64,000 nt of DNA from the NCBI GenBank assembly GCA_026400375.1, contig JAPLPG010000239.1, forward strand, positions 1 through 64,000. The letters are read 5' to 3'. Positions 8,876-64,000 of the stretch are shown in pieces (positions within the stretch are counted from its first letter, which is position 1; each line of letters starts with the position of its first letter). This stretch comes from Novosphingobium sp. Lineage in GTDB: Bacteria > Pseudomonadota > Alphaproteobacteria > Sphingomonadales > Sphingomonadaceae. A program made the position numbers and the translations under genes. The notes under the pieces were generated by a model, which searched no databases, was not told the DNA's origin, and worked only from the letters and a program-made list of their open reading frames with translations.

Positions 8876-9673
8876 ATGACCATCCGCACCATCCTCGTCG
8901 ACGACGAGAAACTGGCCATTCAGGGCCTCCAGCTTCGCCTGCAGGCGTTCCCCGATATCGAGGTGATCGATACCTGCTCGAACGGGCGCGAGGCCATCCG
9001 CAAGATCAAGACCGAAAAGCCCGACCTCGTGTTCTGCGATATCCAGATGCCCGGTTTCGACGGTTTCTCCGTGGTCAAGGGCGTGATGGAAATCGATCCG
9101 CCGCTGTTCGTCTTCGTCACCGCCTATTCCGAACACGCGATCAAGGCGTTCGAGGCCAATGCCGTCGACTACCTGCTCAAGCCGGTGGAGGAAGACCGCC
9201 TGGCCGATGCGCTCGATCGCGCGCGCACGCGCCTGTCGGAAAAGCGCGGACGGGAAGAGGCCGACAAGCTCAAGAGCGTGCTGGCCGAAGTCGCCCCCGG
9301 CGCCATGCCTGAAATGGACGACGAGGAGGAGCCTGCCGCGGGCCGCTTCGAAAAGCTGATCAACATCAAGGACCGCGGCAAGATCTTCCGCGTCGATGTG
9401 GACACGATCGAACGCATCGAGGCTGCGGGCGATTACATGTGCATCTACACCGGCGACAATTCGCTGATCCTGCGCGAAACGATGAAGGACCTCGAACGCC
9501 GGCTCGACCCGCGCGTGTTCCAGCGCGTGCACCGCTCCAAGATCGTCAACCTCGATCAGGTCCGCCAGGTCCGCCCGCACACCAACGGCGAATGCTTCCT
9601 CGTGCTCGATTCCGGCGCCGAAGTGAAAGTCTCGCGCTCCTACCGCGATGTGGTGGCGCGCTTCGTCCATTGA
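8876..9673 (+). CDS. LytTR-family response regulator
   Basis: 265 residues. The receiver domain has acidic pocket residues VDDE (8-11), phospho-acceptor Asp55 in CDIQMPG, FVTAYSE and a conserved Lys in DYLLKPV. A charged linker follows, then a C-terminal LytTR DNA-binding domain (VDVDTIERIEAAGDYMCIYT, FQRVHRSKIVNLD, GECFLVLDSGAEVKVSRSYRD). It would be phosphorylated by the LytS-like kinase encoded 120 bases upstream and bind promoter direct repeats. Targets are not visible here. Confidence 0.93.
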   Translation: MTIRTILVDDEKLAIQGLQLRLQAFPDIEVIDTCSNGREAIRKIKTEKPDLVFCDIQMPGFDGFSVVKGVMEIDPPLFVFVTAYSEHAIKAFEANAVDYLLKPVEEDRLADALDRARTRLSEKRGREEADKLKSVLAEVAPGAMPEMDDEEEPAAGRFEKLINIKDRGKIFRVDVDTIERIEAAGDYMCIYTGDNSLILRETMKDLERRLDPRVFQRVHRSKIVNLDQVRQVRPHTNGECFLVLDSGAEVKVSRSYRDVVARFVH

Positions 9674-47623: not shown

Positions 47624-47932
47624 CTATCGGCGTCGATTGATGGTGTCAGTAATTGCGGCTGCCGAGACCAAGATGATGCCTGATAACCACAGAAAACAAC
47701 CGCCCATAAACTGCACTGCGCGCATGTTCTGATCTTCAATCTCTGAGGCTGATGTCGCTAAGATCGAGCTGCCCAAAAGGATCGCAGCGCAAACAAGCAT
47801 CAGCAGACCCGGTAGGCGAAGGCGACTGGGTTTTGGCGCAAGGTCAAGTTCATCCGCTTCTGGCCAGGCAAGCCACCCGACCAACACAATTGCCAAAGCA
47901 AGGATGCCAAATACGACCGCCTCGGACATCAC
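47624..47932 (-). CDS. Membrane protein co-transcribed with the prophage repressor
   Basis: 102 residues with three hydrophobic segments (about 5-23, 40-58 and 76-95) and a short basic tail NRRR. No known domain. Its ATG overlaps the stop of the repressor gene (ATGA), so it should be made in the lysogen whenever the repressor is. In other temperate phages such genes act in superinfection exclusion or lysogenic conversion; here this is inference from position only. Confidence 0.7.
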   Translation of the reverse strand: MMSEAVVFGILALAIVLVGWLAWPEADELDLAPKPSRLRLPGLLMLVCAAILLGSSILATSASEIEDQNMRAVQFMGGCFLWLSGIILVSAAAITDTINRRR

Positions 47933-48615
47933 AGTCTCCTAACCACTGCGATCACGCGGCCAAAGATGTTGAGCTCGCCGTCGTAGGCAGTTTCTGGTGC
48001 AACGTTTGGATTGTCCGAGAGCATCTTCACGCCTCCATCCGGCATTGGTCTCAGTCGCTTGATCACGGCAGTGTTGCCGTAGTAGGCGGCCCAACAAAGA
48101 TCGCCGTCGTAAACCTCACGCTGGCCGCGATCGATGAGCACTACATCCCCATCGCCAATCGTCGGGTACATGGAGTCGCCGCGCCCTCGCGACCAGCAAA
48201 GCATGTTCGGGGGATGCGGCGTTATCATTCGGAGCCAAGATCGGGGAAAGTCCAGAGCCTCAGCCTGATCCTCAAAAATCTCAGTATCGATGATCGACGC
48301 GCCCATGCCGAAGCTCAAGTCAATCATGTGAATGGGAACCATGTCGTCATCGTTAGACGGTGCTTGGACTGGCTCCTGCGAAACCGGTGCGGGCAGCGAC
48401 CCTTCAAGCAGGGTATGATCGTCGGTTTCTTCCAAGAGATACTCTGGCGTCGTTCGCAAAACCCGGGCGATTGAATGCAGGTGCAAAGTGTTCCGCGTCT
48501 TGCCCGTCATCATGCTTGATATCGTCGGCTGAGCCACGCCCGCGCGGCGAGCAAGCTCAGCACCAGACATATCCAGCAGCTTCAGTCTTGCCCTGATCCG
48601 GTCACCTAATGCCAT
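47929..48615 (-). CDS. Prophage repressor, XRE HTH plus S24 (LexA-like) peptidase domain
   Basis: 228 residues. N-terminal HTH (residues 4-60, GAELARRAGVAQPTISSMMTGK), acidic linker, and C-terminal S24 domain with catalytic Ser148 in RGDSMYPTIGDGD and Lys186 in TAVIKRLRP. No clear Ala-Gly or Cys-Gly scissile dipeptide is visible in the linker, so RecA-stimulated self-cleavage is uncertain. It is divergent from a Cro-like gene across an 84-base operator region and should keep the early operon silent. Confidence 0.9.
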   Translation of the reverse strand: MALGDRIRARLKLLDMSGAELARRAGVAQPTISSMMTGKTRNTLHLHSIARVLRTTPEYLLEETDDHTLLEGSLPAPVSQEPVQAPSNDDDMVPIHMIDLSFGMGASIIDTEIFEDQAEALDFPRSWLRMITPHPPNMLCWSRGRGDSMYPTIGDGDVVLIDRGQREVYDGDLCWAAYYGNTAVIKRLRPMPDGGVKMLSDNPNVAPETAYDGELNIFGRVIAVVRRL

Positions 48616-48699
48616 CCCGATTACCTATCGGCGCTTCTATAATAGCGCTCTATTAAAGTTTTGATTGCAAGCTATCGAAGAATTGATAGATTGCCACAC
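48616..48699. promoter_or_regulatory. Repressor/Cro operator-promoter region
   Basis: Two inverted repeats share a CTAT half-site: TAATAG-CGCT-CTATTA (48,640-48,655, perfect) and GCAAGCTATC-N8-GATAGATTGC (48,667-48,694, 9 of 10). A rightward promoter TTGATT-17-TGATAG (48,661-48,689) overlaps the second, predicting a start only a few bases before the Cro ATG, that is an almost leaderless mRNA. Confidence 0.6.
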
Positions 48700-48945
48700 A
48701 TGGCTATCAGCAACCCACCACTCGAAGCACTACGGCGGCTTGAAGCTGCCGCAGGATCGCAAAGCGCGCTGGCCCGTGCGCTGGGAGTTTCCCAGCCAAC
48801 GGTCTGGCACTGGCTGAATGTCAGCCGTCGCCTCCCAGCAGAGAAGGTACTCAAGGCAGAGCGCCTTTATGGCGTTTCACGGCATGAGCTGCGGCCTGAC
48901 ATCTACCCTGTCGAGCGCCGCCGTGCGCGGAAGGCGGTGGCGTGA
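48700..48945 (+). CDS. Cro/YdaS-like DNA-binding protein
   Basis: 81 residues from ATG 48,700; the track start 39 bases upstream would place the promoter inside the gene. HTH: SQSALARALGVSQPTVWHWLNVSRRLPAEKVLKAERLYGVSRHELRPDIYP, the YdaS/Cro-like pattern. First gene of the rightward early operon; likely shuts off the repressor for lytic growth. Confidence 0.85.
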   Translation: MAISNPPLEALRRLEAAAGSQSALARALGVSQPTVWHWLNVSRRLPAEKVLKAERLYGVSRHELRPDIYPVERRRARKAVA

Positions 48946-48957
48946 TGGCTGCCGATA

Positions 48958-49413
48958 TCAGTCGTCCTCGTTTTGCAGGCCTTCGCCTAGTGGGTCAGTG
49001 CCATCCTCGTAAGGCCAGAACGGGGGATGAAGCTCAACGAACCGCAGATAATCGTTTGCTGCCTGCTGGGTCAGGCGATGATCGGGCATCTTCAGATAGT
49101 GAAGATCAGCCATTTCCTTGGCATGAAACAGCCAATGCACCGCGCATTGAACACGCTGAATTGCGCAAAGCAGAAGGCTGTGACGCAGCAATTGACTGGG
49201 GGCGTCTTGAACTGCCTGCTCTCGTGCCTTTGGCGGCAGCCCGATCAGTTCAAGCAACAGCTCGTCATTCCGAAGCGCAAACTGGCGGATGCCCTCCCGG
49301 CCTAAAAGTTCGCAGCTGTGTTTCAGGGCCTCCATGTCTTCGCGTTCGATGGCAGCTCTCCACCACTGAAGCTGGCGACCAACCTGGGCAATGTTCCGAT
49401 CAAGGTCCGACAT
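48958..49413 (-). CDS. Unknown protein on the opposite strand within the early region (moron candidate)
   Basis: 151 residues. The start ATG is preceded by AAAGGA at good distance. The sequence has regular amphipathic helices (NIAQVGRQLQWWRAAIEREDMEALKHSCELLG; EQAVQDAPSQLLRHSLLLCAIQRVQCAVHWLFHAKE) and an acidic tail, more protein-like than the rightward frame on the other strand (48,942-49,508, cysteine- and proline-rich). No domain recognised. It is opposed to early lytic transcription, so it would be expressed mainly in the lysogen. GC is lower than its neighbours. Confidence 0.55.
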   Translation of the reverse strand: MSDLDRNIAQVGRQLQWWRAAIEREDMEALKHSCELLGREGIRQFALRNDELLLELIGLPPKAREQAVQDAPSQLLRHSLLLCAIQRVQCAVHWLFHAKEMADLHYLKMPDHRLTQQAANDYLRFVELHPPFWPYEDGTDPLGEGLQNEDD

Positions 49414-49508
49414 ACTGTTCCTTTGGCGCTGCGAATCAATTTCGCTGGTTTCGCTGCCTGGATACCGAAGCCTGCCTTTCTGCTCATCGTTTAAGTGAGA
49501 CCGAATAA

Positions 49509-50591
49509 ATGACTGTGACTACCCATACCCCGGCAGGCGGCGAAGTGTTGCTGCTGCCTGTGAGCGAGATCGACCCGGACGGGATCGAGCGCATCGGGTT
49601 TTTTCATGACAAAGAAGTGGCCACGCTGGCCGATCTGATCAGCAGCGACGTGCAGCTTGAGCCCATCGTGATTGCCGCGCCTGCGCCACGATCAAAAGAC
49701 CGGCGCTGGCGGCTGGTAATCGGGCGGCATCGGCTTGCCGCGTGTGCGATGCTGGGCATCGAGGTGCTGGCGCGGGTGGTGACCGGCACCAATGACGAGC
49801 TGCTGCGGATGCAGACGGCAGAGCAGCTTGACCGGCGCGATATGACAGTGCTGGAGCGCGCGGCCTTTGTGGGGCGGCGGGCTGAAATCATCCGTGAACG
49901 CTTGATGAAAGAAGCGGGTGCCGACAACGATCAGAGCCTAGGCGGTCGCCCGAAAAAACTATGGACAGATTTGTCCATAGTTTCTGAAGACGGTCTCTCA
50001 GACGCGGATAAAGCCCTTCTGGCGAAGCTGCCAAAGCAGGCAGGCCTCGCTCCGCAGCCACTGACGGGCGTGCCGAAGGAAGAGGTCGAAGCGGACGTTG
50101 CTGCCGTGGCCGAACGGTATGGCTGGCGCGCGGAAGTTGCGGGTGAGTTCAACCTGCACTTCAAGAAAATGGACCGCCTGCTGACGATCTATCGCGGGCT
50201 GATCAAGCCGCTGCGCGCCGAATGCGAGGCGATTGCGCAGTGCCGCATTGCCAACAATGCCGACGGACTGCTGCAACTGGCGGGCAAGGCCGAAGCGGTG
50301 CGGCGCGTGGCGCTGGGCTGGCTGGCGCAGAACCCGGATGCAAAGACTGCCGAGGAAGCGCTGGTGGCGCTGGGCCTGTCCAGTTCCAAGGGCGCGCGCG
50401 AGGCCGACCGGCTGGAAGGCGAAAGCAAGTTTCTGACGCGGGCGGAGAGCAACCTTGCGCGGCTGACGCCCGGCACTTGGACAAGCTGGGCACCGAAGCT
50501 GGCCGAAACGATCAAGCCATCGGCGCTGCTGGCGGTGCGTGATGCCATCGACGCGCGGATCGCGGCGCTGGCCGCGAAGGGTGGCAAGTGA
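49509..50591 (+). CDS. ParB N-terminal domain protein of a Mu-like phage
   Basis: 360 residues. VSEIDPDGI...DKEVATLADLISSDVQLEPIVI and the core GRHRLAACAMLGIEVLARVV (72-91) with TAEQLDRRDMTVLERAAFVGRRAEII form a ParB/Spo0J nuclease-like domain. The rest is helical and not recognised. ParB-like genes are frequent in the early operon of alphaproteobacterial Mu-like phages; as there is no parA, partition is unlikely and a role in transposition target choice or early regulation is conceivable. Confidence 0.82.
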   Translation: MTVTTHTPAGGEVLLLPVSEIDPDGIERIGFFHDKEVATLADLISSDVQLEPIVIAAPAPRSKDRRWRLVIGRHRLAACAMLGIEVLARVVTGTNDELLRMQTAEQLDRRDMTVLERAAFVGRRAEIIRERLMKEAGADNDQSLGGRPKKLWTDLSIVSEDGLSDADKALLAKLPKQAGLAPQPLTGVPKEEVEADVAAVAERYGWRAEVAGEFNLHFKKMDRLLTIYRGLIKPLRAECEAIAQCRIANNADGLLQLAGKAEAVRRVALGWLAQNPDAKTAEEALVALGLSSSKGAREADRLEGESKFLTRAESNLARLTPGTWTSWAPKLAETIKPSALLAVRDAIDARIAALAAKGGK

Positions 50592-50908: not shown

Positions 50909-51210
50909 TCGGCCTGACGCCCCGGCAAGCTGATCTGCTGCGGTTCATCCGTGGCTATCAGATTGCGCGTGGCGGGGTTTCGCCATCGGTGCGGGAATGC
51001 CAGCGCGGGCTTGGCCTGAATAGCACCCAGAGCATCCACCGCATGATGGTGTGCCTGGAAGAGCGCGGGGCGATGCGGCGGGCGCGCAACTGGGCGCGCG
51101 CGATCGAAGTGCTGATGCCTGTGCCGGTTCCTTCGATCAATGGATCGCCGCTTTACGTGGTGCCGATGGTCGGCGTCCGTGCCGTTCGTTTTAGTGAGGA
51201 GCGTTTGTGA
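50905..51210 (+). CDS. LexA-type winged-helix protein without peptidase domain
   Basis: 101 residues from ATG 50,905 (ATGA overlap with the preceding stop). LTPRQADLLRFIRGYQIARGGVSPSVRECQRGLGLNSTQSIHRMMVCLEERGAMRRARNWARAIEVL is the LexA DNA-binding domain pattern; there is no S24 catalytic domain after it. A possible early regulator or decoy of SOS control. Confidence 0.8.
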   Translation: MIGLTPRQADLLRFIRGYQIARGGVSPSVRECQRGLGLNSTQSIHRMMVCLEERGAMRRARNWARAIEVLMPVPVPSINGSPLYVVPMVGVRAVRFSEERL

Positions 51211-51617
51211 TGGTTGCACTCAGCTTCAAGGGCCAATTTGCCGAGCCTATCCTGAACGGCACAAAGCGCCAGACAGTGCGGGTGCAGCGCAAGCGCCCAC
51301 CGCGCGTGGGTGAGCGGCTGCAGCTGTATGTCGGCATGCGCACCAAACAGTGCCGCAAGATCATGCCTGATCCGATCTGCACCGAAGTGTGCCTGATCAT
51401 GATCACGGTGGATACCAGCCACCCAGAACTGATCGCGGGAATCACGTTCGATAATCGGACGCACCTTGGCAACGAAGCCATCGAAAGCTTCGCCGTGGCC
51501 GATGGCTTTTCGGCCAGCGATAACTGCAGTGCGCGCCGGGCCATGGGCAACTTTTGGATGCGCCACCACGGGCCGGGCGAGTTCATCGGCCATTTGATCC
51601 GTTGGGAGGCCAAGTGA
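51210..51617 (+). CDS. ASCH domain-like phage protein
   Basis: 135 residues from ATG 51,210 (a GTG one codon upstream is possible). LSFKGQFAEPILNGTKRQTVRVQRKRPPRVGERLQLYVGMRTKQCRKI has the ASCH fold signature (PxILNGxKxxTxR...G..L.L). ASCH domains bind RNA or modified nucleosides. Overlaps the neighbours by a base each; part of the early operon. Confidence 0.72.
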   Translation: MVALSFKGQFAEPILNGTKRQTVRVQRKRPPRVGERLQLYVGMRTKQCRKIMPDPICTEVCLIMITVDTSHPELIAGITFDNRTHLGNEAIESFAVADGFSASDNCSARRAMGNFWMRHHGPGEFIGHLIRWEAK

Positions 51618-52421: not shown

Positions 52422-52869
52422 GGCGCGGGCGCATCCTGACCAGTTGGCGCTGAACCTCAGCACGCCGACCATGCTGACCGGCCCTGCCGCGTTGGCGGGG
52501 CTGGATGCGCGAGTCTGCCGCACGGTGGGCACCATTCTGGCTAGTGATGGCAGGCCGCGCGAGGTGATCGCGGCGGAACTTTCGGTTCTGCTGAACGACG
52601 AAGTGAGCAAGCCGATGCTGGATGCCTATTCCAGCCCGGCACGGATGGACCATAAAGTGCCGGTAAGCCGGTTCCTTGGCCTGCTGGCGGTGACGGCGCG
52701 CGTCGATCTGATGAGCCCGCTGGTGCGCGAGATCGGGGCGACGCTGCTGATCGGCGAGGAAGTGAAAACCGCGCGGCTGGGCCATCTGCGCCAGCAGGCG
52801 CGCGAGATCGCCACCGAAATTCGTGAACTTGAGCAGTCGGCTCCAATGATCCGGGGGAATTTGCGTTGA
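52414..52869 (+). CDS. Phage protein upstream of the transposase, unknown
   Basis: 151 residues from ATG 52,414; the track start is inside the previous gene. Helical, with LLNDEVSKPMLDAYSSPARMDHKVPVSRFLGLLAVT and a C-terminal coiled region LRQQAREIATEIRELEQ. Genes of this type commonly precede the transposase in Mu-like phages of alphaproteobacteria, but no function is known to me. TTGA overlap with the transposase start. Confidence 0.65.
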   Translation: MPKARAHPDQLALNLSTPTMLTGPAALAGLDARVCRTVGTILASDGRPREVIAAELSVLLNDEVSKPMLDAYSSPARMDHKVPVSRFLGLLAVTARVDLMSPLVREIGATLLIGEEVKTARLGHLRQQAREIATEIRELEQSAPMIRGNLR

Positions 52870-54863
52870 GCGCGGCAGAGGTCATCTACCCAGAACAGTT
52901 CGCGCAACCTGCAGCTGGGCCGAAGGAATGGTTTTCGGCTGCCGATCTTGCCGATCTGCGCCTGCCGGGCCTGCCTGCCGAAGTGCGTTCGGTGCAGCGT
53001 AGGGCGGTGGACGAACGCTGGGGCGAGCGCCGCAATCTGGCAGGCGAACTGCTGGCCCGCCCGCGCGGCGCGCGCGGCGGAGGGCTGGAGTTCCATCTGG
53101 AAGTGCTGCCGATTGCAGCGCGGCAGGAGCTGATCCGGCGCGGGATCAGCTCAGAAACCGCCGAAGCAGCGGCAGCACTGAGCGAAGCCGAAGAGCTTTG
53201 GGAATGGCTGGGCCATCAACCTGACAAGGTGCGTGCAGAAGCGCAGAAGCGCCTTGATGCGGTGAGCGAGGTCCACCTGCTGCACGGGCAAATGAAAGTG
53301 GCCAAGGGCATTGCCGTTCGCGAAGTGGCAGCCAAGCACCGCGTCAGCCAGGCCACGCTGTGGAACTGGTGCAAGGCGGTGATTGGTGTGGAGCGCAAGG
53401 ACTGGCTGCCTGCGCTGGCCCCGCGCCGCAAGGGTGGCGGCAAGGTTGCCGATATTCCCGACGAGCTGTGGCAGTTGTTCAAATCAGACTGGCTGCGGCT
53501 TAGCCAGCCTCCCATCGCTGCCAGTTACAAGGTGGTGAAGCGCCGGGCGAAGGCGATGGGCGTAACGCTGCCAAGCGTGCGCGCGTTTCAGCGCAGGATA
53601 GAGCGCGAGATCGACCCGTATGTGGTGATCCTTATGCGCGAAGGCCGGGAGTCGCTGGAACGCCACGTGCCATCGATCCGGCGCACGGTGACCGATATCA
53701 GCGTGATGGAATGGGTGAACATCGACGGACACGTGTTTGACGTGAAAGTGAAGCACCCTGACACCGGCAAGGATATCAGGCCAACGCTGGTGGCCATTCA
53801 GGACGTGCGCAGTTCAAAAATCCTCGCTTGGCGGGTGGGCGTGAGCGAAAGCGCGGCGACGGTGCGGTTGGTGTTTGCCGATTTGATCCGCGAGTGGGGC
53901 ATCCCCGCCGATATCATCTTGGACAATGGCCGTGGCTTTGCAGCGAAGTGGCTGACGGGCGGCGCATTGACGCGATACCGGTTCAAAATCCTGCCCGAAG
54001 ACCCGCAAGGGCTGCTGGTGCAGTTGGGCGTGAACATCCACTGGGCGACGCCGTTTCACGGTCAGGCCAAGCCGATTGAACGCGCCTGGGGCGACCTGTG
54101 CAACTACATTGCGAAGAGCGCCGAGGTGGACGGCGCGTACACCGGCAATTCCCCGGTCAACAAGCCCGCCAACTATGGCAGCCGCGTGATGGAGTGGGAT
54201 GAATTCTGCGCGCTGGTGGACCGGGAGATTGCCGAACACAACGCCAGTGAAGGTCGCGCGGGCCGTGATTACAAGGGCCGCAGCTTTGACCAGGTGTTTG
54301 CAGAAGGGTGGGCCGATGCGGCGGTCAAGCAACCGAGCCGCCAGCAGCTGCGCGACAGCCTGCTGGCCGTAGAGCGCAAGCGTGGCAATACCAAGGATGG
54401 CGAAATCAGCCTGTTTGGAAACCGATATTGGTCAACAGAGTGCCGCCAGATCGCGGGCAAGTATGTGACCGTGCGGTTTGACCCTGACGATCTGCACACT
54501 GAGGTCCATATCTATGGCGAGAACGGGGCCTACCTGTTCAGCGCGCCGGTCTTGGCAGACTACGGCTTCAAACAGACCGAAGGGTCCAAGGTTGTGCAGA
54601 AGCGCCGCGCGCATGTGCGGAAACTGGCGAAGACGATGGCGGAAGCACAGGAACTGCTCGATCCGTCCGAAGTGGCACGGATCAAGGCCGGTGTGCCGGT
54701 GGCTGAACCGAAAAGCGTGGGGAGGCCCGGCGCATCGATCGGCGTCATCACGCGCAAATCATCGGCAGTGCCGAAGCCCGAGCCGCATGCACCGGAAAAA
54801 CAAGTCAGAGCATCTGCATCAAGAGTTTTTGCCGCGCTGGGAAAGCCCCGGCTGGTGAAATGA
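52866..54863 (+). CDS. MuA-like DDE transposase
   Basis: 665 residues, close to MuA (663), with a TTG start coupled to the preceding stop. N-terminal DNA-binding HTH regions (residues ~20-70 and 131-175), integrase-core catalytic domain with D287 (VNIDGHVFD), D353 (IILDNGRGF) and E405 (KPIERAWGD); spacings 66 and 52 are near those of MuA. A beta-barrel-like region (YWSTECRQIAGKYVTVRFDPDDL) and a basic C-terminal tail that would contact the ATPase follow. It integrates and replicates the phage by transposition. Confidence 0.95.
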   Translation: MSAAEVIYPEQFAQPAAGPKEWFSAADLADLRLPGLPAEVRSVQRRAVDERWGERRNLAGELLARPRGARGGGLEFHLEVLPIAARQELIRRGISSETAEAAAALSEAEELWEWLGHQPDKVRAEAQKRLDAVSEVHLLHGQMKVAKGIAVREVAAKHRVSQATLWNWCKAVIGVERKDWLPALAPRRKGGGKVADIPDELWQLFKSDWLRLSQPPIAASYKVVKRRAKAMGVTLPSVRAFQRRIEREIDPYVVILMREGRESLERHVPSIRRTVTDISVMEWVNIDGHVFDVKVKHPDTGKDIRPTLVAIQDVRSSKILAWRVGVSESAATVRLVFADLIREWGIPADIILDNGRGFAAKWLTGGALTRYRFKILPEDPQGLLVQLGVNIHWATPFHGQAKPIERAWGDLCNYIAKSAEVDGAYTGNSPVNKPANYGSRVMEWDEFCALVDREIAEHNASEGRAGRDYKGRSFDQVFAEGWADAAVKQPSRQQLRDSLLAVERKRGNTKDGEISLFGNRYWSTECRQIAGKYVTVRFDPDDLHTEVHIYGENGAYLFSAPVLADYGFKQTEGSKVVQKRRAHVRKLAKTMAEAQELLDPSEVARIKAGVPVAEPKSVGRPGASIGVITRKSSAVPKPEPHAPEKQVRASASRVFAALGKPRLVK

Positions 54864-54935
54864 GTTGGTGCGCGGGGCGGCCTAGGAAACTGACCCCGCG
54901 CACCTGTCCCCCAAACAGAGACAGGAGTGTCTAGC

Positions 54936-55859
54936 ATGGAAGCGAGTACGGATAGAAACCCGTTTATCGAGGAACAGCGCCAGTGGCTGGTGCGGTTCAA
55001 GGAAGAGGCGGATTTCAGCTGGCCACAACTGGCCAAGCGGATCGGCAGGCCTGCGGGCACGCTGAGCCAGTTCGGCAGCGCCAAGGGTTACAACGGCGAC
55101 GAACTGGGCGTGGCCGAGAAAGTGAACGCCTTCCGCCAATCGCTTGAAAAGCAGCGTGCGCTGGCGGCGGAACTGCCCGAAGTGCCGGGATTTTTCCGCA
55201 CTGAAACGACAGACAGGCTGGAATACATGCTGCGGTTTGCGCAGATGGGACAGATGGTGGCGGCGGCGCTGGAAGCCGGATGCAGCAAGACTGAAACCGC
55301 GCAGGCCTATACCCGTAAAACGCCCAACGTGTTCTATGTAGAGCTGCGCAAATCCGCTGGCGTCACGAACAACATGCTCAAGATGGTGCTTGAGGCGATG
55401 GGCGTGAAAGACCCGAAGGGCGGCACGTTCGACATGTCTGCGCAGGTTTGCGAAATCCTGCGGAAATGCAGCAAGCCGCTGATCATCTTCGACGAAGCGC
55501 AGCATCTTACCGAGGCGTCGCTGGAAGAAATCCGCAGCTGGCCCGACACCCTCGACGGTGCCCGCGCCGCGATTACCGGGATCGCTTTCTTCGGCAACAT
55601 CGGCATTCTGCAGAAGCTGGCGCGCTATGCCCAGCTTTCGAGCCGCATCCGTCTGCGGCACGAACAGCGCACACCGATGCCTGCCGATATCGAGGCGCTG
55701 GCCGATGCGTGGGGTGTCAGCGACGAAGCGAGCCGGAAGCAGCTGCACGTCGTTTGCAGCCGTCTGGGCGGGCTGCGCACTGCGGAGGACGTGCCGCTCG
55801 CTCTCGACCATCTGGAAGACGCATGGGCGGAACTCGATTTCCGGGCGGTGGCAGCATGA
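54936..55859 (+). CDS. MuB-like transposition ATPase with unusual Walker A
   Basis: 307 residues from ATG 54,936 with AGGAG upstream. An N-terminal HTH (WPQLAKRIGRPAGTLSQFGSAKGYNG) is followed by an AAA ATPase: Walker A position ALEAGCSKTETA (112-123) lacks the usual glycine before the lysine, and Walker B is LIIFDEAQHL (182-191). A GIAFFGNI sensor-like motif and a C-terminal helical domain follow. MuB-type proteins coat target DNA and activate the transposase. Separated from the transposase by 72 bases. Confidence 0.88.
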   Translation: MEASTDRNPFIEEQRQWLVRFKEEADFSWPQLAKRIGRPAGTLSQFGSAKGYNGDELGVAEKVNAFRQSLEKQRALAAELPEVPGFFRTETTDRLEYMLRFAQMGQMVAAALEAGCSKTETAQAYTRKTPNVFYVELRKSAGVTNNMLKMVLEAMGVKDPKGGTFDMSAQVCEILRKCSKPLIIFDEAQHLTEASLEEIRSWPDTLDGARAAITGIAFFGNIGILQKLARYAQLSSRIRLRHEQRTPMPADIEALADAWGVSDEASRKQLHVVCSRLGGLRTAEDVPLALDHLEDAWAELDFRAVAA

Positions 55860-56616: not shown

Positions 56617-57029
56617 TCGGCGGCGCACCCTTCTGGCGGGATGGCGATCAGCGCCAGTCTTCGCTGCCCGCGCTACGGCCTGTTGCCGACAGGCCGGTGT
56701 GGGTTTCGCCTTCGCGCGTGATCGCGTTTGTCTGCCTGTTCTACCGGATCGAGGAAGCGGCGTTCTTTGCGCATCGCCGTGCCGACGAACTGGTGGCGGC
56801 GCGGGCGCTGGTGGTGTGGCTGTTGCGGCAGGTTCCGGCACAGCCGATGAACTATTGCCAGATTGGCCGCGCCATCGAGCGGGACCGCACCAGCGTGATG
56901 CACCTGCACAAGCATGTAATCCGGCTGCGACTGCAGGACCGCGCGTTCAAGCGCGTGGCCGAGGCCATGCGGTTCCACTTCACGCACATCTATTCCCATA
57001 TCGGAGGGCCTGATCATGCCAGCCTTTAA
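56613..57029 (+). CDS. DnaA domain IV-like HTH protein of the prophage
   Basis: 138 residues from ATG 56,613. The C-terminal half VSPSRVIAFVCLFYRIEEAAF...MNYCQIGRAIERDRTSVMHLHKHVIRLRLQD resembles the DNA-binding domain of DnaA (IGRxxxRDxTSVxHxxxxV) without an ATPase domain. Similar proteins occur in phage early operons. It could bind DnaA boxes of the host or an internal site; the role is not established. Confidence 0.75.
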   Translation: MIGGAPFWRDGDQRQSSLPALRPVADRPVWVSPSRVIAFVCLFYRIEEAAFFAHRRADELVAARALVVWLLRQVPAQPMNYCQIGRAIERDRTSVMHLHKHVIRLRLQDRAFKRVAEAMRFHFTHIYSHIGGPDHASL

Positions 57030-57729
57030 TGCAGTGCAGGCCGCGCCTGCCAAGTTCGACGCATCGCAGCGCCGCCGCAGGTCGATGCTGGCGAAGGTTC
57101 ATATCGCCATCAAAGACCTGCGCATGGCCGAAGACGATTATCAGCAGATCGTCTTCGACAAGACAGGCAAGACGAGCCTTGAGGGTGCAACCGAGGCCCA
57201 GATCGGCAAGGTGCTCGACGTGATGAAAGCCAAGGGGTTCAAGCCGCTTCCGGGCAAAAACAAGGTGGCGACGCATCCGATGGCGCTGAAGGCGCGGGCA
57301 ATGTGGGAGTCGCTGTATCATCTGGGGGCGATCCGCAATCCGGCCTATGAGGCGCTGGAAGGCTGGGCGTGTCAACGGTTGGGTTGCGCCAAGCTGCAGT
57401 GGGCGAGGCAATCCGATGCCACCCGGATCATCGAGCCGCTGAAGGACTGGGCAAAGCGCGAAGGCTGGTTGCAACACAATCCGGCCACGGGACGAGCCTT
57501 GAGCCCGATCGAACTGAGAGCTTCGCTGTGCAGTGCCATCCTGCTCAAGTTGAAGGACGAAGGCGTGGTGCCGGGTGACTGGCTGTTGCACCATGCCGCA
57601 TGGCAGCTTTGCGGCATCGAGAACGCCAAGGCCGATCCGTGGACGGCCAGCGACTACGACCGCCTTGCCGCTGCACTGGGTGACAGGCTGCGTGCGCACA
57701 AAGCTGCAACAGGAGGTGCCCGTGGCTAA
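57016..57729 (+). CDS. gemA: GemA family regulatory protein (DUF1018)
   Basis: 237 residues. RRSMLAKVHIAIKDLRMAEDDYQQIVFDKTGKTSLEGATEAQIGKVLDVMKAKGFKP is the GemA/Mu gp16 signature (IHIAKKQLGLDDDTYRxxL...S-x-M). In Mu, GemA modulates host gene expression and DNA supercoiling. A C-terminal half with W-rich helices makes it longer than Mu GemA. Follows the DnaA-like gene with a 14-base overlap. Confidence 0.85.
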   Translation: MPAFNAVQAAPAKFDASQRRRRSMLAKVHIAIKDLRMAEDDYQQIVFDKTGKTSLEGATEAQIGKVLDVMKAKGFKPLPGKNKVATHPMALKARAMWESLYHLGAIRNPAYEALEGWACQRLGCAKLQWARQSDATRIIEPLKDWAKREGWLQHNPATGRALSPIELRASLCSAILLKLKDEGVVPGDWLLHHAAWQLCGIENAKADPWTASDYDRLAAALGDRLRAHKAATGGARG

Positions 57730-57946
57730 GATCGCAACTGCATTCGCCGACAATCGCGGTAACCTGCATCCGACGGCTGAGGCTGCGGTTCTTGCAGACC
57801 TGACCGTGATCCTTGGCCGCGTTGGCGCAGAAAGTTCGCTGACTGCCGGGCTTGCCCAGCGCATCATCGAGAAGCGCGCCGACATCGAGGCGGTGTTTGC
57901 CGACCTCGACGCAATGACGGGAGGCGAACATGCGCAAGCAGCGTAG
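57722..57946 (+). CDS. Small phage protein, unknown
   Basis: 74 residues from GTG 57,722, overlapping gemA by 8 bases. Helical, VLADLTVILGRVGAESSLTAGLAQRIIEKRADIEAVFADLDAMTG. No recognised domain. The track start lies inside gemA. Confidence 0.55.
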   Translation: MAKIATAFADNRGNLHPTAEAAVLADLTVILGRVGAESSLTAGLAQRIIEKRADIEAVFADLDAMTGGEHAQAA

Positions 57947-60336: not shown

Positions 60337-60563
60337 GAGTAACCGAACGCATGATCGAGGCGGCTGCCGAAATGGTGGACCGCGAGCGTGACAACGAGAT
60401 TGCCCGCATTCAGGCCGAGCTTGCCGAAGAGGGCGAAGACTTCTGCATCGAGTGTGACGATCCGATCACGCCTGCCCGCAAGGCGGCGCTGCCTTCGGCG
60501 GAGCGGTGCATCCATTGCCAGGCAGAACATGAAAGGAAGGCGCGTGCAGCTCGCCACGGTTAG
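60333..60563 (+). CDS. TraR/DksA-type C4 zinc finger protein
   Basis: 76 residues from GTG 60,333 (GTGA overlap). An N-terminal helix (RMIEAAAEMVDRERDNEIARIQAEL) and a C4 finger with C38, C41, C59 and C62 (CIECDDPITPARKAALPSAERCIHCQ), as in TraR. TraR-like phage proteins bind in the RNA polymerase secondary channel and can mimic DksA with ppGpp. Common in this place in Mu-like phages. Confidence 0.88.
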   Translation: MRVTERMIEAAAEMVDRERDNEIARIQAELAEEGEDFCIECDDPITPARKAALPSAERCIHCQAEHERKARAARHG

Positions 60564-60903
60564 TCAATGGGTTTCGATTGTGGCGCTGCTGATTAGCATC
60601 GGCAATGTTTTGTGGGCGTGGTTCTCTCGCCCGGCGCGCGATCTGGGCACCCGCCTTGATCAGCACCGCACCGAAACCGACAAGCGGTTCGATGAAACCG
60701 AGATGCGGATCGATACCGCCTATGAGGGGCTTAAAGGCCACGACCGGCGCATCCAGCGGGTTGAGGACGATCTGCGCCACTTCCCGACGAAGGACGATCT
60801 GCAGGAGCTGGAGGTCAAGGTGATCGCCATCAAGACCGAGCTGGATATCGTGGCCAAGGTGGTTGGCCGGATCGACGATTTTTTGCGGAGCACGAAACCG
60901 TGA
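60544..60903 (+). CDS. DUF2730 family phage protein
   Basis: 119 residues from GTG 60,544. One N-terminal transmembrane helix (VSIVALLISIGNVLWAWFS), then a long coiled coil (DLGTRLDQHRTETDKRFDETEMRIDTAYEGLKGHDRRIQRVEDDLRHFP). This matches DUF2730, a family found next to the packaging genes of Mu-like phages. Function unknown. The track start is within the TraR-like gene. Confidence 0.78.
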   Translation: MQLATVSQWVSIVALLISIGNVLWAWFSRPARDLGTRLDQHRTETDKRFDETEMRIDTAYEGLKGHDRRIQRVEDDLRHFPTKDDLQELEVKVIAIKTELDIVAKVVGRIDDFLRSTKP

Positions 60904-61211
60904 GCAGCTATGAACAGAAGTGTCAGGAAGACGCCCGGCTTGCCATTCTTGCCGAATTGGCAGCGCAGCGTGATGCCACGCTGAACAGCCGATCGTTGGC
61001 CACGCTGGTTGACCAGGTCGTGCCACGCAAGCCACCCGAATGGGTGGAGACCCAGATCGACTGGCTGGAGAGCATGGGCGCGATCAGCGTTACCCGTTCG
61101 AACCTGCCCGGCCTTGGCCCGGTGTCGATCGCCACGATCAAGCAGCTCGGGCGCAATCACGTTGACCGCCGTCTCATCATCCACGGCGTGACTGTTCCTG
61201 CAGACCTGTGA
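60900..61211 (+). CDS. VpaChn25_0724-like phage protein
   Basis: 103 residues from GTG 60,900. ARLAILAELAAQRDATLNSRSLATLVDQV...VETQIDWLESMGAISVTR...GLGPVSIATIKQLGRNHVDRRLIIHGVTVP has the winged-helix layout of the family known by this name, which sits between DUF2730 and DUF3486 in Mu-like phages. Probably a DNA-binding protein. Confidence 0.75.
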   Translation: MSSYEQKCQEDARLAILAELAAQRDATLNSRSLATLVDQVVPRKPPEWVETQIDWLESMGAISVTRSNLPGLGPVSIATIKQLGRNHVDRRLIIHGVTVPADL

Positions 61212-61870
61212 TGAGCGAGGAAACGCCCTCCGGCCCACAGGCCAACCCGCAAGACAGCCGCCGCGCCGGTCGCGGGCGGCTCTCGTCGATCGAGATGCTG
61301 CCCGAGGAGTGCGACGAGGATATCGCCTGGGCCAATACCGAGCTGCGCGAAAAGAAGATGCCGCAGACCGAAATCCTGCGGCAGTTCAATGCGCGGCTTG
61401 CTGATCGCGGGCTGAAGGGCATCAGCAAGGGTGCCTTCAGCCGCTGGTCGGTGCGCGTGGCGATCGAGATGCGCAAGCTGGACGCGAGCCGCCAGATCAT
61501 GGACGTGGTGTTGCAGCGGCTTGAGCCGGGCGAGCGCAGCGACAGTATGATCGCGGCAACCGAGCTGCTGAAGTATCGCATCCTTGAACAGGTCATGGCC
61601 GAGGATGAGCCGGACCCCAAGCTGCTGCTGAACGCCACGCTGGCGCTGCAGCGCCTTTCAGCCACCGCCGCGCGCGAGGCCGAAGTGCAGCGCCGTGACA
61701 AGCGCGACCAGCAGGCCGAGGCAGAGCGGCAGGCCGAGCAGGACAAGCAGGCGCGGGCCGAAGCCGAGGCGGCGACTGCGGAGCAGGTTGCGAAGATCGC
61801 CAGCGAAGCGGGCCTCAATGCCGAGCGCATCGCCGCGATCCGGCGTGGCGTGCTGGGGTTGGCGGGATGA
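61211..61870 (+). CDS. DUF3486 family protein (Mu gp27-like, probable small terminase)
   Basis: 219 residues from ATG 61,211. RGRLSSIEMLPEECDEDIAWANTELREKKMPQTEILRQFNARLADRGLKGISKGAFSRWSVR is the DUF3486 signature. The C-terminal half contains a long charged coiled coil (EVQRRDKRDQQAEAERQAEQDKQARAEAEAA). In Mu, gp27 is the likely small terminase subunit. Here it is separated from the large subunit by four small genes. Confidence 0.88.
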   Translation: MSEETPSGPQANPQDSRRAGRGRLSSIEMLPEECDEDIAWANTELREKKMPQTEILRQFNARLADRGLKGISKGAFSRWSVRVAIEMRKLDASRQIMDVVLQRLEPGERSDSMIAATELLKYRILEQVMAEDEPDPKLLLNATLALQRLSATAAREAEVQRRDKRDQQAEAERQAEQDKQARAEAEAATAEQVAKIASEAGLNAERIAAIRRGVLGLAG

Positions 61871-62175
61871 AGCGCCACGCCCCATCACGACGCGGCACCG
61901 GCAAGTTGGTGCGGTCACAGCTCCAGATTACGCCGGAGCTGCAGGCTTTCGCACGGGACAACTATCCGATCCCGGAAGGCGTGAAGGTGTGGCAGGCGTT
62001 CGCCTGGAGCGATACTGCCGGATATCGGCGTCGCGTGCGGTTCTATTGCGACGACGGGCTGCAGATCGACGGCACTTTCAGTGCTGCGCGAGCGGATGGC
62101 ACCGGCTTAATGGTGCAGTACATCGGCAACTTCCGCATGAAGTGGAACCTGATCGCGCGGAAGGAACCCGCGTGA
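61867..62175 (+). CDS. Unknown phage protein between the terminase subunits (1 of 4)
   Basis: 102 residues, ATGA overlap with DUF3486. A basic N-terminus (MKRHAPSRRGTGKLVRSQ) followed by a beta-rich part (WQAFAWSDTAGYRRRVRFYCDDGLQIDGTFSAARADGTGLMVQYIGNFRMKWNLIAR). No recognised family. Confidence 0.6.
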   Translation: MKRHAPSRRGTGKLVRSQLQITPELQAFARDNYPIPEGVKVWQAFAWSDTAGYRRRVRFYCDDGLQIDGTFSAARADGTGLMVQYIGNFRMKWNLIARKEPA

Positions 62176-62510
62176 AAGCCATCGCCGCCATCGACTTCGC
62201 GTGCAATGACCCGAGCAACGGCCTGTTCAATGGCCGCGCCGGTTCGGCAATGTTCGGCGATGTCGAAATCGAGGCCCCGATCTGGGAGGGCTATCGGTTC
62301 TCCGAGCTGCAGATGGAGCCAGATTTTGCGATCCGGCTGCACAGGATGACCTTCAAGGTCAAGGGCAAGCGCGAGTGGGTCGGAAACTGGTGTTGGAACC
62401 GGTACTTCCTGCCCCGCGCCGACATGAAGCGACTGCTGTTCTGCCTGCGCCGCAATGGCTGGCGCGTCACCTGTGGGCCTTCGCATTTCTGTCAATGGTG
62501 GAACGCATGA
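62172..62510 (+). CDS. Unknown phage protein between the terminase subunits (2 of 4)
   Basis: 112 residues from GTG 62,172 (GTGA overlap). Rich in aromatic residues (IWEGYRFSELQMEPDFAIRLHRMTFKVKGKREWVGNWCWNRYFL) with a C-terminal RRNGWRVTCGPSHFCQWWN. No recognised family. The track start is inside the preceding genes. Confidence 0.6.
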   Translation: MKAIAAIDFACNDPSNGLFNGRAGSAMFGDVEIEAPIWEGYRFSELQMEPDFAIRLHRMTFKVKGKREWVGNWCWNRYFLPRADMKRLLFCLRRNGWRVTCGPSHFCQWWNA

Positions 62511-62827
62511 CTGATCAGCAAGCGCCCAGCTGCTCCGACTGCACGTATTGCTCGCATGGTTGGTGCGTCCGTTCCATTGGGCGGCACTTCAGTGTGGGCA
62601 GCAACAGTTATCGCAGCCGGTTGAACGTGAGCTGCGCGCACGAGCGTTCCAGCGAGCGCACGTTGACTGGGCGCTGGAAGTGCGGGCCGAGCGGGCGCTA
62701 CTTCGAGTCGAACGGCATCGACCTGCCGATGCGAGGCATGACCGGCACCGTGATCATTGACGAAGCTGCAGCGTTCCCGCGCGTGCATGACACCGTGGCC
62801 GACAGCGACGGGGATGATGGCGCATGA
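62507..62827 (+). CDS. Cysteine-rich phage protein between the terminase subunits (3 of 4)
   Basis: 106 residues from ATG 62,507. The N-terminal part has clustered cysteines (CSDCTYCSHGWC, CAHERS, KCGPSG) suggesting a zinc or Fe-S site. The C-terminal part carries TGTVIIDEAAAFPRVHD, which looks like the Walker B of the large terminase encoded next (GVVVIDEAAFHD), though no Walker A is present. Function unknown. Confidence 0.6.
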   Translation: MTDQQAPSCSDCTYCSHGWCVRSIGRHFSVGSNSYRSRLNVSCAHERSSERTLTGRWKCGPSGRYFESNGIDLPMRGMTGTVIIDEAAAFPRVHDTVADSDGDDGA

Positions 62828-63117
62828 AACTGCCCGATGATCTTCTTCTGTCTGCACTGGCCAAATGGAGGGATGATCTTGCCCAAGAGGCAGCCGCGCG
62901 CGGTGAAGAAATGTTCATGGGTCTTCCTGACATTTGGTACGGGAACCCGCACTGGTTTTGCATCAACGGTCACGTTTCGCAGGTGGTCCTTCGTCGTGAA
63001 GGCGGGCCGTCTCGTTGCTTGGCTTGCAGGGGTGTCGTTTTCATCGGACCCGCTCTGTCAGAAGAAGACTTTGCACCCGTGCTTGCTGAAATCGCACAAA
63101 GAGTAGCAGGCGCATGA
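62824..63117 (+). CDS. Zinc-ribbon-like phage protein between the terminase subunits (4 of 4)
   Basis: 97 residues, ATGA overlap. A helical N-terminus (LPDDLLLSALAKWRDDLAQEAAARGEEMF) and a possible zinc ribbon HWFCINGHVSQVVLRREGGPSRCLACRG. Ends 4 bases into the large terminase gene. Unknown function. Confidence 0.6.
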   Translation: MKLPDDLLLSALAKWRDDLAQEAAARGEEMFMGLPDIWYGNPHWFCINGHVSQVVLRREGGPSRCLACRGVVFIGPALSEEDFAPVLAEIAQRVAGA

Positions 63118-64000
63118 CCGGCGCTTTCAAGAAAGCGATGGCGGCAGGCGCAGCTATGGCGACTGTGCTGGCATCGGGCCAGCAGGGCGTGGAGCCGGTG
63201 CTGGCGCGCGATCCGGCGTTGTTGCCGCAGGAGTTGCCGCGCGGCGCGGAGATACCGCAGGACCTCGACCCGCTGGCCGACGGCGTTCTGATGAAACATC
63301 AGCGCGAGTGGCTGGAGGACAAGAGCGATCTGAAGATCGCCAAGAAGGGACGGCGCACCGGCATCACCTTTGCCGAGGAGCTGGACGATACGCTGATCGC
63401 CGCCGCTGCCCGATCGGCGGGTGGCGACAACGTGTTCTACATCGGGGACACGAAGGACAAGGGCCGCGAGTTCATTTCCTATGTCGCGCACTTTGCCAAG
63501 ACAGTGGCGAAGGAGCTGGCCGAGATCGAGGAGTTCGTCTTTGCCGACGAGCGCGTCGATGAAGCGACCGGCGAGGTCAAGACCCGCGATATCAGCGCCT
63601 TCCGCATCCGCTTTGCATCGGGCTTTCGCGTAGAGGCGCTGTCATCGCGCCCGGAAAATATTCGAGGGCTCCAGGGCGTTGTCGTGATCGATGAGGCTGC
63701 ATTCCACGACAACGTGCGCGCCGTGATCGACGCGGTGAACGCGCTGCTGATCTGGGGCGGCAAAATCCGCGTGATCAGCAGCCCCAACGGCGTGCTCAAC
63801 CCGTTCGAGGAACTGTGCAGCGAAGCGCTGGCAGGCAAGAACGGCTTCAAGGTGCATTTCATCCCCTTCTCAGCAGCGGTTGAGAACGGCCTGTTCCGCC
63901 GTGTCTGTCTGATGAAGGGCAAGACCTGGTCGCCCGAGGCCGAGGCGGAATGGGAAGCCAAAATCCGCAGCGCCTATGGCACGCGCACCGCGCAGATGCG
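63114..64000 (+). CDS. Mu gp28-like large terminase subunit, N-terminal part (runs off the window)
   Basis: Absent from the ORF track because no stop occurs before the window end; 295 residues are visible from ATG 63,114. A Walker A-like loop KKGRRTGIT (77-85) and Walker B GVVVIDEAAFHD with the ATPase coupling segment VRVISSPNGVLNPF define the packaging ATPase. The nuclease domain should follow outside. It drives headful packaging of phage DNA. Typical full length is about 500-550 residues. Confidence 0.9.
   Translation, partial: MTGAFKKAMAAGAAMATVLASGQQGVEPVLARDPALLPQELPRGAEIPQDLDPLADGVLMKHQREWLEDKSDLKIAKKGRRTGITFAEELDDTLIAAAARSAGGDNVFYIGDTKDKGREFISYVAHFAKTVAKELAEIEEFVFADERVDEATGEVKTRDISAFRIRFASGFRVEALSSRPENIRGLQGVVVIDEAAFHDNVRAVIDAVNALLIWGGKIRVISSPNGVLNPFEELCSEALAGKNGFKVHFIPFSAAVENGLFRRVCLMKGKTWSPEAEAEWEAKIRSAYGTRTAQM

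Follow-up and report, generated by a model that had tools for sequence, protein, structure and literature searches.

Genes lying antisense in an early operon have been described in the B3-like Pseudomonas phage Fc02 by Ramirez-Sanchez et al. (PMC9936078): the overlapping genes olg1 and olg2 are antisense to gene 10, located after ner, their transcription in the lysogen apparently starts at pC1 and proceeds toward the repressor, and Olg1 and gene 10 each exclude superinfecting phages when expressed. Here, we analyzed a 64,000-nucleotide stretch of Novosphingobium sp. DNA (contig JAPLPG010000239.1, positions 1 to 64,000; hereafter the window), which contains a Mu-like prophage. In this prophage, a gene coding for a protein of 151 amino acids, designated P0001 (48958..49413, minus strand), is located between a YdaS/Cro-like gene and a ParB-like gene, facing the repressor gene and ahead of that for MuA. 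As in Fc02 and B3 (Beetrevirus), it is a small gene oriented in the repressor direction and antisense to the frame that follows cro/ner in a Mu-like early operon, and we read it, by analogy, as the alphaproteobacterial counterpart of Fc02 olg1. Our favored explanation, held with slightly better than even confidence, is that P0001 runs leftward, nested antisense within the early operon, in a slot between cro/ner and parB whose content can be swapped, and that it is expressed on a lysogenic transcript and codes for an exclusion or cargo protein.

The P0001 frame starts with ATG and is preceded, 5 nt upstream, by the Shine-Dalgarno (SD) sequence AAAGGA, read directly on the minus strand (49419..49424), as the initial annotation had described. 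A purine-rich SD sequence is also found at the corresponding place in the phage relatives of P0001. The initial annotation had tied its reading to the existence of minus-strand homologues, as against their absence together with conserved homologues of the rightward frame, and homologues of the minus-strand product were found, with 23-31% identity over the full length. Locus L024, absent from profile building, was recovered by profile search at E = 3.4e-37, with its homologue in the corresponding slot. In every P0001-family pair tested, the third positions of leftward codons had the most substitutions (2, 6, and 11 differences at codon positions 1, 2, and 3 in the L016/L017 pair). Because of the full-length homologues, the recovery of L024, and the third-position bias, P0001 is more than a chance open reading frame (ORF), and sequence comparison thus confirmed the leftward 151-codon gene as real and protein-coding. 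The opposite interpretation would take the leftward frame as a chance ORF and the rightward frame facing it as the real gene, the latter being the longer of the two (188 codons) and running in the direction of the operon. However, homologues were found for the leftward protein only, the rightward frame gave no match in Pfam or PHROG, and variation is concentrated at the leftward third positions, a substitution pattern that already contradicts this interpretation; we give it hardly any credence.

A search of approximately 400 genomes of the family yielded four clear homologues of P0001 (26-30% identity), and four IMG/VR prophages containing homologues were reached by searching with the sequence of one relative. 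Weak and partial matches from the family-genome search (G288, G215, and G278; E > 0.001) were set aside. All homologues have in common an R...A...L core, and most of them a C-terminal WP(F/Y)xDxxDP motif. Six of them belong to other Mu-like prophages from sphingomonad-type hosts, in which the gene lies leftward and directly before a parB-like gene, and two more come from island-like surroundings that are not of this phage type: the one in Sandaracinobacter neustonicus adjoins an Arm-type integrase and a RelE/HTH pair, and the one in genome G290 lies three genes downstream of a PADLOC candidate defense protein. At locus L009 (5285-12807), a homologue is found amid unfamiliar genes, including one for a DUF2971/PDC-S31 candidate defense protein, and this region is possibly a defense island. 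The P0001 family is rare. Profile searches covering approximately 400 genomes at the order level and 289 at the class level detected no additional copies, none turned up among the proteins of 195 further genomes of the genus, tblastn found nothing in 50,697 phage records or in plasmid records, and single-protein scans of viral and genome collections gave no match.

The initial annotation had recognized no known family in P0001, and searches against Pfam, PHROG, NCBIfam, and PADLOC agreed with this in giving no match; the PADLOC defense models did not match four of its relatives either. AlphaFold2, using seven sequences, predicted with confidence an all-helical protein of six helices (residues 3-23, 27-48, 50-57, 61-69, 74-100, and 111-128; mean pLDDT 86.8, pTM 0.77). 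P0001 resembles prophage moron or exclusion cargo in running leftward against the operon, in being exchangeable, in belonging to an orphan family, and in having copies near mobile or candidate defense genes. It differs from known defense cargo in having no PADLOC, Pfam, or NCBIfam match. The product is probably an exclusion or cargo protein. An exclusion function had been guessed in the initial annotation, and by analogy the guess is reasonable, since Fc02 olg1, the nearest studied analogue, is transcribed in the lysogen and excludes superinfection (PMC9936078).

Related loci were gathered using parB as bait (37 loci, plus the nearest relative, L022), and 39 loci were examined. An SD-backed leftward gene was present in the slot between cro/ner and parB in 36 of them: 25 A7-type genes (four only weakly matching), seven P0001-type genes, and four other small genes. 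The A7 family consists of leftward small proteins of 69-87 amino acids in IMG/VR Mu-like prophages. These genes share with P0001 the slot, the strand, and the antisense nesting before parB, whereas no homology to P0001 was detectable and the phase of the overlap differs. The parB gene of L022 is the nearest to that of the window (77% identical), yet its slot holds an A7-type gene; therefore, by this comparison, a conserved slot has exchanged its content. Between the leftward gene and parB, L031 (~1389-1609) and L041 (~1950-2176) contain an inserted additional small gene, which runs rightward, has a CxxC motif, and is provided with a parB-type start context of its own. The view that early Mu-like regions are normally all rightward, taken by the initial annotation, did not survive these counts, and the B3 group shares the layout. 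What stands of its overall interpretation is a leftward coding gene directed against the early operon, and this gene is probably cargo that the lysogen expresses; what falls is that such a gene would be exceptional here.

A leftward slot gene that is near-universal (36/39) and always aimed at the repressor would also suit a lysis-lysogeny regulator. In such a case, the P0001 protein or transcript would support the repressor or oppose the early operon, through antisense transcription or through binding of Cro, ParB-like, or MuA proteins, and the Fc02 transcript of like direction does feed the repressor (PMC9936078). However, the slot proteins switch family without detectable relation, and P0001 members also exist outside the Mu-like setting without parB or cro; both facts fit cargo better, and we regard a regulatory role as rather unlikely.

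The rightward frame opposite P0001 (48942..49508, plus strand) is open, as the initial annotation had noted. It starts with GTG/ATG at the cro stop, crosses the whole P0001 gene without a stop codon, and ends with TAA directly before the parB ATG, whereas in 37 of the 39 loci its stop overlaps the parB ATG (ATGA). In P0001-type loci, position 1 of the plus-strand codon faces position 1 of the minus-strand codon, and the rightward frame was stop-free in 7/7 P0001-type phage copies, even though conservation in this region lies with the leftward protein. Synonymous permutation of six well-separated phage copies gave 12.7 expected stops against 0 observed (product of P ~2e-8), with a null that an antisense-parB control indicated to be too high by ~24% (335 stops observed vs 443). 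The two non-phage homologues had 2 and 7 stops on the opposite strand, as predicted by the permutation null. In A7-type and most other small slot genes, the codons of the two frames are exactly complementary to each other; codon counts are fixed in the A7-type phase, for which the permutation test is uninformative and was replaced by a codon-usage control. Since codons are exact complements in this phase, an open rightward frame requires a leftward gene without TTA, CTA, and TCA. Such stop-complement codons were 0/345 among the Leu/Ser codons of 24 non-P0001 slot genes, in comparison with 3.4% in parB (P ~7e-6). These comparisons establish a selective openness of the rightward strand. Rather than an insignificant competitor of P0001, the rightward frame is one kept open up to the parB start, a point that the initial annotation missed. 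It is conceivable, and we advance it only tentatively, that this is a carrier frame whose product is irrelevant, selection removing the antisense stops of any slot gene and thereby letting ribosomes proceed from cro to parB.

The openness in all relatives would also be expected if both strands encoded functional proteins, as Fc02 gene 10 and olg1 do, the rightward 188-residue protein of the window being functional too. In relatives, the N-terminal part of the rightward frame outside the overlap is coding (183, 145, and 314 differences at positions 1, 2, and 3 in A7-type phages), and in some it is Mu-transpos_C-like. Inside the A7-type overlap, however, the rightward differences are 491, 168, and 307, so that the leftward third positions vary most, and in the window only ~5 rightward codons lie ahead of the overlap, the body of the frame being almost wholly antisense. 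Similarity of the rightward-frame proteins was above the permutation null (z 6.8), but a same-strand control frame gave z 6.2, and the test is therefore not specific. We consider functional proteins on both strands improbable. As a separate observation, the rightward gene before parB (1772-2931 in L021, 826-1616 in L032, 9366-10198 in L012, and at similar loci) often starts with a Mu-transpos_C-like segment (PF09299, 2.8e-6 in L019/L021); this is a transposase C-terminal-like domain standing detached within the early operon.

The end of the rightward frame includes a conserved block of DNA before parB (49485..49511, plus strand), reading CATCGTTTAAGTGAG...TAAATG in the window and CAYCGTCTAWGTGRGGTGCGAAATGA in relatives. 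Its CTA/CGT codons are almost invariant; therefore, it is conserved as DNA rather than as peptide, and it is probably the translation start region of parB. Conservation of this block also accounts for the "HRLS" tail common to the rightward frames. A zinc-finger reading of the C-x13-C-x5-C-x3-H tail was rejected as the main interpretation, since L018 and L005 lack the tail, searches with it matched its own contig alone, and "HRLS" is conserved at the DNA level. The rightward tails of L023, L021, L054, and L024 share W-F-x-C-x5-C-x3-HRL, which is partly a DNA-level feature, with C and W codons also kept; it may represent either a short coding tail or a block of regulatory DNA that lies upstream of the leftward gene.

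The B3 record contains a frame of 74 amino acids (9188-9412, plus strand) with ORF16 opposite, which fits olg1. Differences between B3 and Fc02 fall mostly at olg1 third positions inside the overlap (6, 5, 27), whereas beyond the overlap the ORF16 third positions are mostly affected (10, 3, 30), and the same was found when B3, Fc02, JBD25, and JBD67 were compared. Judged by these substitutions, the B3 group has the nested coding pattern of the alphaproteobacterial phages, with coding on both strands and dominance of the olg1 strand where the two overlap. The relative phase, in which position 1 faces position 1, is that of the window. The two systems differ in several respects. Olg1 has 74 amino acids and is non-homologous to the 151 of P0001; in B3 the overlap is confined to the 3' part of gene 10, whereas in the window it takes in nearly all of the rightward frame; and a parB-like gene comes next in the window phage, with none such in B3.

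Based on this precedent, we propose that in the silent prophage a leftward transcript would start between parB and P0001, with the helical protein as its first cistron, and could continue across cro in antisense orientation and enter the repressor gene, in the manner of the Fc02 pC1 transcript. No leftward terminator-like site was found between 48958 and 48615, that is, from P0001 to the repressor gene. The P0001 protein would most likely act on incoming phages or on the host, as superinfection exclusion or cargo. Upon induction, rightward transcription would cross the P0001 DNA, and the stop-free frame from the end of cro to the start of parB would let ribosomes cross the antisense gene to parB, thereby providing translational coupling and protection from polarity. 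Several points weigh against this explanation. No match to a sigma-70 promoter was found upstream of P0001, although alphaproteobacterial promoters may not fit the consensus. P0001 and Olg1 showed no sign of homology (hhalign probability 0.1), and searches of PDB and BFVD with the predicted fold of P0001 gave no match at E <= 0.001. The P-values for openness are approximate, the joint P being ~1e-6 after correction with the parB control, and for the window alone P is only 0.04. Finally, L037, L044, and L049 have a slot without a leftward gene, and such a gene is therefore not essential to this phage type.

The surroundings of P0001 are those of a Mu-like prophage. Downstream of P0001 on the leftward strand lies the gene for a CI-like repressor with HTH and S24 peptidase domains (47929..48615, minus strand), divergent at the start of the early operon from the first early gene, which codes for the Cro/YdaS-like regulator (48661..48945, plus strand; PF15943, 5.3e-18). 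The ParB-like early gene follows the slot (49509..50591, plus strand; phrog_3264, 6.8e-17; NCBIfam parB_part, 7.4e-10). Then come genes for a MuA-type DDE transposase with Mu DNA-binding domains (52866..54863, plus strand; PF02914, 1.5e-46; also PF09039 and PF09299) and a MuB-type transposition protein (54927..55859, plus strand; phrog_296, DNA transposition protein, 1.1e-41), and further right those for endolysin, portal, and Mu F-like head proteins, which together with MuA and MuB identify the setting as a Mu-like prophage. Between parB and MuA there is a small ASCH-domain-like gene (51207-51617; PF04266, E 0.002, below the cut-off). Two leftward frames of 114 and 301 amino acids without Pfam match lie between MuB and endolysin (56673-57885), possibly a second leftward cargo site of the prophage. 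Leftward frames of 189, 121, 173, and 127 amino acids, also without Pfam match, lie between the lysis and head genes (60466-63862).

These results would extend the layout in which an exclusion gene of the lysogenic state lies antisense to the early operon from one Pseudomonas phage group to alphaproteobacterial Mu-like prophages. Since Fc02 is a clear precedent, we present the locus as a new variant of a known layout, with protein families that are new and a comparative signature that is clear. Antisense genes of this kind are easily missed, because annotation tools tend to keep one strand only. If the carrier frame is true, translation of the antisense strand would impose a constraint on the codons used by a lysogenic cargo gene, which is directly testable; a stop-free opposite strand over unrelated slot genes would offer a clean test of how ribosome traffic on one strand may shape codon choice on the other.
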